The translations under genes and the position numbers were made by a program. A DNA stretch of 49,603 nt from a virus. The notes under the pieces were generated by a model. The model ran no database searches, was not told where the DNA came from, and was given only the letters and a program-made list of their open reading frames with translations. The DNA is taken from the IMG/VR virus record IMGVR_UViG_3300013102_000039, positions 1-49,603 of that record, one strand, 5' to 3'. Position 1 is the stretch's first letter, and every line of letters begins with the position of its first letter. Of the stretch, positions 3,876 through 11,956 are shown piece after piece.

Positions 3876-4109
3876 ATGCCGAACAGCGCATCTGCTTTTG
3901 CCGTCATCGACGAACCCATCACCCCGGAGAAGATCGCCCGCGATACGGGCCTTGACCTGAGCTTGGTCAGGGACTGGGTGACGCATGCCAGGTCCTACGA
4001 GGACGGCAGCGGTTACCTGGTGTTCTTCAAGCCGGACACCCCAGCCGAGGTGCGGGAGATGGTTCCGCGGCTGTCACCGACGAACCTGCTGATCATCCTG
4101 GCAGCATGA
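3876..4109 (+). CDS. Small opposite-strand phage protein (77 aa)
   Basis: A 77-aa protein read against the surrounding operon, with a good ribosome site (GAAGGAG) six bases before the ATG. The sequence ITPEKIARDTGLDLSLVRDWVTHA has the spacing of a helix-turn-helix, followed by a short strand region SGYLVFFKPDTPAEV. It may be a small DNA-binding regulator; no family is recognised. A possible promoter, TTGCGC-N16-TAGGAT, lies at 3815..3842. It ends 3 bp before the converging 116-aa gene. Confidence 0.7.
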   Translation: MPNSASAFAVIDEPITPEKIARDTGLDLSLVRDWVTHARSYEDGSGYLVFFKPDTPAEVREMVPRLSPTNLLIILAA

Positions 4110-10875: not shown

Positions 10876-11250
10876 TCAGGCAACGAACGCCAGCTCGTCC
10901 ACTTTTCGGGCCACGCGCACCTGGTAGGTGGTGCGCGGCCCGGTGGGGCGGCGGATGGGGTTGGTGGGTTGGTGGTGGCCGCTGCCCAGCAGCAGGGCGA
11001 TTGCGAGCGGGGCGATGATTCCGCGCTTCCAGGCTTCGAGCACGGTGCCGCGGGTGGTGCGCTGCATGCCGAGCTTGAAGCGGGCGGCGTCGAGCAGCTG
11101 GCGCGCGCCGTCGGGGCTGATGGTCATGGCGCGGGCGATTTCCTTGGCGGTTTTGTCCTCGGCGGCCAGCAGCACGGCTTCGAGCTGGCGGCGCGGCAGG
11201 CCTGCATCGAGCCGGCCCTTCCAGCCGGCGACGGTGATGGTGTTGGGCAT
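10876..11250 (-). CDS. LuxR-type HTH regulator with hydrophobic tail
   Basis: A 124-aa protein from the ATG at 11250 with ribosome site GGAAG. Residues 16-65 match a GerE/LuxR helix-turn-helix (LPRRQLEAVLLAAEDKTAKEIARAMTIS, then GARQLLDAARFKLG), where the TAKEIA turn is diagnostic. It lacks a receiver or ligand domain. A hydrophobic stretch, IIAPLAIALLLGSG, follows at about 78-91 and could anchor it in the membrane. It is a likely early transcription regulator. It lies directly downstream of the structured RNA at 11271..11351. Confidence 0.8.
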   Translation of the reverse strand: MPNTITVAGWKGRLDAGLPRRQLEAVLLAAEDKTAKEIARAMTISPDGARQLLDAARFKLGMQRTTRGTVLEAWKRGIIAPLAIALLLGSGHHQPTNPIRRPTGPRTTYQVRVARKVDELAFVA

Positions 11251-11270
11251 GGTGCTTCCTTGTCGTGGGT

Positions 11271-11351
11271 AACCGCATTGGCCCAGCCGCCAAGCGCGGG
11301 TGACCAAACCCTGCGTGAATAGCGCAGGCTTGGCGGCTGGCCGATGCGGTT
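11271..11351 (-). ncRNA. Candidate three-way-junction RNA in the leftward operon
   Basis: Arms 11271..11295 and 11328..11351 pair over about 24 bp with one G-U and one bulged base. Inside are two short hairpins: GGT/ACC (11299..11301 with 11308..11310) and CTGCG/CGCAG (11311..11315 with 11323..11327) around a seven-base loop. It fills most of the 111-bp gap between two early genes, and no T run follows, so it is not a simple terminator. It may be an antitermination element like HK022 put, a processing site, or a stable RNA. The fold is read directly; the role is inferred. Confidence 0.6.
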
Positions 11352-11361
11352 GCGGTGTGGT

Positions 11362-11709
11362 TTAGGCTTCCGGCTTGTCGGCCTGGGCGAGGTGAGCGCG
11401 GTACAAATCACTGGCGCCGCGGATCATTTTCAGAGCGGTGCTTGAGTTCCAGTGAGCCTCGCTCTTTACGTGACTGCGGAGCGATGCCTTTGTGACGCCC
11501 AGGCGTTTGGCGTGCCAGGCAAACCAATCGTCTGGCAGCTCAGCGACGGCGGTTTTTGCAGCTGCTCGCAGCTCATCCCGCTCAGCCTTGAATGCCTTGT
11601 TCGCCTTCTTTTTGTTGGCCGCCTCAGTTGCCTTGTAGCCGTCAATCTCTGCGTCGATGTCACCGCGCTTGTTCAGCGGAATATTCAGAACTCCGTGATC
11701 GAGTGCCAT
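11362..11709 (-). CDS. First gene of the leftward operon, hypothetical (115 aa)
   Basis: A 115-aa protein starting at the ATG at 11709 behind a GGAGAA ribosome site; an upstream in-frame ATG has no such site. A lysine/alanine-rich helix (ATEAANKKKANKAFKAERDELRAAAKTA) is followed by a folded part with WFAWHAKRLGVTKASLRSHVK, which could be a helix-turn-helix. As the first product made from pL it occupies the place of lambda N, but it shows no arginine-rich N-type motif. Function unknown. Confidence 0.75.
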   Translation of the reverse strand: MALDHGVLNIPLNKRGDIDAEIDGYKATEAANKKKANKAFKAERDELRAAAKTAVAELPDDWFAWHAKRLGVTKASLRSHVKSEAHWNSSTALKMIRGASDLYRAHLAQADKPEA

Positions 11710-11956
11710 TTCGGTTCTCCGGTTGGATTTCCCAAAGCACCCTGTCGCCAAGGTGCTTCAGTGAAATCTTTCATCGCCGCGCGCAGCTACTGGCCTCTTG
11801 CGCGGCGTCGTTCATGTCAAAGATCCCGCGGCTCTGTGGCCGCTTATGGCTACCAGTCGGTCTCCGGTTAGGAGGCTGGTGGGTTCTATCGCTCTTCCCA
11901 TGCGTTCCGGCGTGTCCGGCTTGTATCGGCGCGGTGTTTTGCGCTGCGATGGATTT
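11710..11956 (-). other. Leader of the leftward early transcript
   Basis: About 250 bp between pL and the first leftward gene. It holds one clear stem-loop (AAGCACC at 11735..11741 with GGTGCTT at 11752..11758) just upstream of the first gene and no convincing reading frame above about 30 aa. A long leader with a hairpin is what an antitermination (nut-like) or leader-RNA control region would look like. Confidence 0.5.

Follow-up and report, generated by a model that had tools for sequence, protein, structure and literature searches.

The early operons of temperate phages can carry signals that act as RNA as well as genes that act as protein. The one considered here contains, in a gap between two open reading frames (ORFs), a segment predicted to fold as RNA into a compact three-way junction, which we call W. 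It lies in a stretch of viral DNA (IMG/VR record IMGVR_UViG_3300013102_000039) that we analysed at its full length of 49,603 nt, 'the window' in what follows. Is the fold of W real, is it selected as RNA or as DNA, and what might it do for the phage?

The W element as a structured RNA

The operon is directed leftward, and the minus strand corresponds to the transcribed RNA of W. On this strand W folds into a three-way junction of -51.3 kcal/mol, compared with a mean of -32.9 for shuffled sequences (z -5.48; none of 200 shuffles equalled it). An outer helix, P1, encloses two hairpins, P2 and P3 (Table 1). A preliminary description, made from the letters of the window, had recognized a compact three-way junction with two inner hairpins, one with a loop of 7 nt, in a leftward early operon, and had placed it in an 81-nt span of a 111-bp gap. 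The fold bears out the first of these claims, and the ORF coordinates (gap 11251-11361, between two minus-strand ORFs) the second. For the outer arms it had counted about 24 bp, a single bulge and a single G-U, which is correct for the plus strand; on the transcribed strand P1 comprises 23 pairs (8+4+11), one C.A mismatch and one bulged G. The absence of a T run, from which W had been judged to be no plain terminator, holds as well: the transcribed strand has no terminator-like site at W, and the sole terminator-like match there belongs to the opposite strand and is no better than chance. Neither a promoter nor a terminator of its own was seen for W in the window. ARAGORN reports only a tRNA-Pro in the window, at 44-120, and no tRNA or tmRNA match at W.

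Table 1. Features of W and of its surroundings in the window
Feature	Coordinates	Strand	Description
W, whole three-way-junction RNA element	11271..11351	-	Fold z -5.48; model matches; covariation
P1 5' arm	11328..11351	-	AACCGCAUCGGCCAGCCGCCAAGC; basal ACCGCAU nearly invariant across the W family (alignment A6, pair counts)
Hairpin P2	11312..11326	-	UGCG-CUAUUCA-CGCA in the window: 4 bp, 7-nt loop
Hairpin P3	11298..11311	-	GGGU-UUGGUC-ACCC: GGGU/ACCC stem, 6-nt loop UUGGUC
P1 3' arm	11271..11295	-	GCUUGGCGGCUGGGCCAAUGCGGUU; one bulged G and one mismatched A; AUGCGGU nearly invariant
Shine-Dalgarno-like AAGGAAG	11255..11261	-	From sequence; outside the W helix
Downstream ORF, small LuxR/sigma-region-4-like HTH protein (phrog_3282)	10876..11250	-	ATG 20 nt past the W 3' arm
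Upstream ORF, function unknown	11362..11709	-	Other genes in its place upstream of W in most relatives
H, companion hairpin 5' of the first ORF	11725..11769	-	Model R3, 63.4 bits; covariation
Weak boxA-like sequence	11815..11826	-	GGATCTTTGACA, 9/12, operon leader; in many relatives CGCTCTTTAACA, 11/12

Close relatives were located via the protein encoded downstream of W. In all of them W lies ~20 nt before this same gene, and the upstream gene is different in most; in one (L008), a stem of W is rewritten on both sides. A covariance model, R1, was built from five copies of W, a second model, R2, was also used, and a search of viral contigs with a degenerate core pattern matched at least 120 stretches. 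Alignments made with a model lean toward the structure of that model; 28 diverse copies were aligned by MAFFT without one (alignment A6). Of the 30 pairs of W, 16 are changed on both sides in these 28 copies, versus 6.4 by shuffling (0 of 500 shuffles), and the cells so changed number 58 versus 12.3, counts that are not to be read as probabilities, since the copies share ancestry. Paired cells make up 94.2% of A6, versus 28.6-39.1% when partners are slid, and RNAalifold independently predicts the outer helix and P3. The covariance check over Pseudomonas that the preliminary description had proposed thus comes out in favour of the fold, with compensatory changes in the homologues of W. G-U pairs outnumber A-C mismatches by 46 to 14. 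The complementary strand would swap these two classes; what has been selected is therefore the strand that is transcribed, and hence an RNA.

Conservation is uneven within the element. The basal helix ACCGCAU/AUGCGGU is nearly invariant, whereas the middle of P1 and the stem of P2 vary but covary, and the loop and length of P2 differ between copies. The stem of P3 covaries too (G-C to C-G, G-C to A-U), around a loop motif, UGGUC, that is invariant in A6; the core-pattern loci were selected on the core, and this invariance rests mainly on copies from the model-based genome search, in which the loop is shared as well. Judged by these alignments, W is a real RNA family and not a chance fold. A further interaction is possible within it: the P3 loop UUGGUC could form 6/6 pairs with GRCCAA in the 3' arm in 22 of 28 copies, compared with 0.3% of other arm positions. 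Covariation lends such a pseudoknot, a possible switch, little support, the loop being constant where the arm changes.

The family is found in a single genus. Model R1 detects W in 47 of 399 Pseudomonas species genomes; model R2, with strict filters that could miss weak relatives, has no match in 293 genomes from elsewhere in the order or in 273 from elsewhere in the class. Of 50 phage records, 48 contain W just once. The two exceptions are a tandem duplicate 0.5 kb apart and a 95-kb record with two copies 47 kb apart. As a rule there is one W per phage, and we reject a multi-copy regulon element on this ground. In L163, W and its gene are duplicated in tandem (2277-2364 and 2769-2856), and the first gene copy is broken. 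Rfam 15 has no match at gathering score to W of the window or to 12 relative loci, and its sub-threshold matches over W at E up to 10 are at chance level. Searches by blastn of W against plasmids, and of the copy of a relative against sequenced phages, returned no match and no annotated relative. Structured cis-acting RNAs of phage operons are already known as a broad kind; we found no description of W in open-licence papers, nor of its combination of a single copy with indifference to the gene that follows.

Position of W in the early operon

Two properties could not be seen by the preliminary description: the family-wide distribution just given, and a fixed distance between W and the start codon that follows it. 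Among the 130 copies with a callable ORF (genes and starts in relatives were called by a simple home-made script), 121 have 12-25 nt between the end of the 3' arm and a start codon, nearly always ATG and accompanied by a Shine-Dalgarno match. On its other side W has no such fixed spacing, its distance from the upstream stop codon varying widely. The ORFs downstream of W form 23 BLAST clusters; with a few calling artefacts set aside, no fewer than 15 unrelated families remain, for the most part PHROGs without an assigned function. Comparison of the copies thus establishes W as a selected structure on the mRNA strand, as a rule single-copy and syntenic, that is fixed to the next ribosome-binding site whatever the ORF. 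Such a placement, before changing genes, suggests that W exerts a general control over the early viral message. We reject autoregulation by the LuxR-like protein as a general role, since the family of the downstream gene changes. Unrelated small proteins downstream of W (e.g. in L077, L075, L116, L067 and L115) have a common C-terminal end, ARVKP, perhaps because the ribosome-binding site of the next gene is embedded there.

The operon itself is the early recombination operon under CI control, with a CI-type repressor (S24 + HTH) upstream and ERF and YqaJ recombination genes downstream in relatives. The same CI-type repressor is present in the window at about 17.1-17.9 kb. In a comparison of 14 phage records with W, all whole or nearly so, none of the protein families is common to all at the BLAST level (the best reaches 11/14), a result limited by remote homologues and incomplete records. 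This suggests that W works with a host factor or as RNA alone.

Riboswitches and translational operators that sequester the Shine-Dalgarno sequence pair it in one of their states; here it lies outside the fold of W, which may have other states. In most relatives, W is directly preceded by a G-poor, C-rich flank (e.g. CACCCCUUCCCUUCAC), 72% pyrimidine over 30 nt, a tract not seen in the window's own close lineage. The mean duplex energy of this flank with the Shine-Dalgarno region is -6.4, versus -7.1 for shuffled flanks. Sequestration of the Shine-Dalgarno sequence by the 5' flank, being no better than shuffled, gains no support, and a simple on/off switch of this kind was not found.

Upstream of W, the operon contains a second undescribed RNA family, H, a hairpin of about 43 nt with a bulged A and near-invariant U.G pairs. 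H, too, covaries (402 both-side-changed cells versus 130 by shuffling) and favours G-U over A-C, 249:10. Of 149 Pseudomonas genomes, 86 have H; of 184 other gammaproteobacteria, none. Every locus in which both elements were found has one to three H above threshold, all 5' of W and on its strand, and none 3' of it; from the first H, in the leader, to W is about 0.4-2.8 kb. Most copies of H end 17-25 nt before a start codon, a geometry like that of W. Further copies are found, for example, in L099 (1636, 1874 and 2188), L106 (3435-4019) and L004 (5908-5952). In relatives, the region before the first H looks like an early promoter, has repeats and includes a boxA. This boxA, CGCTCTTTAACA, is situated downstream of the early promoter and about 110-305 nt before the first H (e.g. 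L099, L014, L012 and L121). Matches of at least 10/12 to the rrn boxA occur within 320 nt before the first H at 35 of 85 loci (41%), compared with 3.5% of random windows. The preliminary description had seen no boxA; this is so at W itself, but not in the operon leader, where relatives have a near-perfect rrn-type boxA and the window a weak one.

Possible roles of W

We tentatively favour the view that a host factor reads W as a cis-acting 5'-UTR element of the early (pL-type) mRNA in temperate phages of Pseudomonas. W would act after transcription, at its boundary with the ribosome-binding site of the next ORF. Its strong helix would keep upstream RNA away from this site and leave the Shine-Dalgarno sequence free, and the invariant UGGUC loop and nearly invariant basal ACCGCAU/AUGCGGU helix would be presented to the host factor—the ribosome, an RNA-binding protein or a nuclease. 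This factor would in turn determine how well the remainder of the early message, downstream of W, is translated or how stable it is. Some considerations tell against this. The tight 3' spacing could follow from the insertion of any RNA element directly before a minimal ribosome-binding site. And a lone W that keeps its place while the genes after it change is explained by an operon-wide or trans role no less well than by control of one gene.

The main rival to reading by a host factor in cis is that W is an RNase III-like processing site, at which the 23-bp helix is cut, the upstream early transcript is separated, and a defined 5' end is left before the ribosome-binding site. RNase III sites are near-perfect helices of about 20 bp or more, and W, with 23 pairs, one mismatch and one bulge, has such a helix, near two turns in length, kept in relatives and placed directly before start codons. 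The RNase III sites of the T7 early region, and the RNase III hairpin in the lambda N leader, are likewise long intercistronic or leader hairpins in early operons, directly upstream of ribosome-binding sites. The lack of a common phage protein agrees with such a site, as do H and the long closing stems further upstream (described below), which look alike, and the rrn-like boxA leader. What processing leaves unexplained is the invariant UGGUC loop, the nearly invariant base, and the restriction to one genus. What sets W apart from the T7 and lambda sites is its pair of conserved inner hairpins, its invariant loop and its nearly invariant basal helix, together with a distribution confined, in the samples searched, to Pseudomonas. 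On balance, we consider a processing site rather unlikely.

W might instead be a small stable RNA, excised or independently made, that acts in trans on the host or on a rival phage. A compact closed fold, an invariant loop, a single copy per phage and changing neighbours would all suit such an RNA. Against it, W nearly always abuts a ribosome-binding site, neither a promoter nor a terminator of its own was seen in the window, and Rfam has no relative; we regard this role as improbable.

More doubtful still is a role as an RNA antiterminator that acts on RNA polymerase, as put of phage HK022 does, with a different anatomy. HK022 put suppresses termination via the zinc-binding domain of the RNA polymerase beta' subunit. 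It comprises two adjacent stem-loops; putL is just downstream of pL, and putR is about 270 nt from the start of pR (PMC9378689). Like put, W is a structured cis RNA of about 70-80 nt in the early operon of a temperate phage and apparently does not require a dedicated phage protein; its early position, its single copy and the boxA-type leader in the same operon also accord with antitermination. The preliminary description had proposed a put-like element, but the resemblance does not extend to anatomy: put lacks a closing helix and is near its promoter, whereas in W a 23-bp helix closes a three-way junction, and the leader is hundreds of nt away, with one or more ORFs or other RNA modules in between. 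Nor does antitermination need a fixed distance to a start codon. The lambda nut site (boxA/boxB), in which boxA is no more than tens of nt from a short hairpin with a GNRA-like loop, has a parallel in the boxA near the early promoter in the leader of relatives. Reading the sequence finds no boxA beside W, however, the boxA-like sequence being before H in the leader; the hexaloop UUGGUC is unlike the GNRA-like loop of boxB, and an N-like protein common to the phages with W was not found.

That W is a DNA element—a cruciform, a recombination or cassette site of the attC kind, or a MITE/REP repeat—is highly improbable: the genes on both sides of W change between phages, as at mosaic boundaries, but the 46:14 asymmetry and the fixed orientation and start-codon distance reject a cruciform or mobile repeat, W is not dispersed within the phage genome, and its outer ends (AACCGCA...TGCGGTT, followed by ACCC in the window and by varied sequence in relatives) lack the GTTRRRY core of integron attC sites (RYYYAAC ... 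GTTRRRY).

W resembles the cis-regulatory RNA motifs found by comparative genomics (PMC2864571, PMC8040213) in its covariation and its fixed position before genes. Most of those motifs keep one downstream gene function, whereas W changes gene family, and it has no match in Rfam 15. It is a genus-wide structured RNA family, absent from Rfam, in phages without a common protein at the BLAST level, and it opens the little-studied early-left region of Pseudomonas temperate phages to tests of RNA-level control.

Possible untranslated RNA in the early operon

In 45 of 97 relatives a long-stem RNA stands between H and W (one copy in 44, two in one); the window has an ORF there instead. These RNAs (e.g. 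L168, L166, L141, L165, L097 and L117) combine an invariant foot, GCAUCGG/CCGAUGC, which was itself the search pattern, with a long, near-perfect stem, and the interiors of 42 distinct copies fall into 29 unrelated clusters. ARAGORN and Rfam find nothing in them; two carry T-arm-like GGTTCGA motifs.

H, present in more than half of the sampled Pseudomonas species genomes, the rrn-like boxA and the hypervariable long-stem RNAs suggest, as neighbours of W, that the cargo of these phages includes untranslated RNA besides genes. A broader reading, to which we give limited credence, is that W is the 3' boundary of an island of untranslated RNA in the early operon, in which the rrn-like boxA leader would protect structured RNAs, and the long-stem RNA of about half of the relatives would be moron-like cargo in the form of RNA. 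If so, W would set the end of the RNA part of the message and the start of the translated part.

One homologue of the LuxR-like gene, in Stutzerimonas (L018), has a multi-branched RNA instead of W, within the 190 nt before the match at 4001. This RNA, with the foot GAGTGATCTGG/CCAGATCACTC, resembles the long-stem modules.
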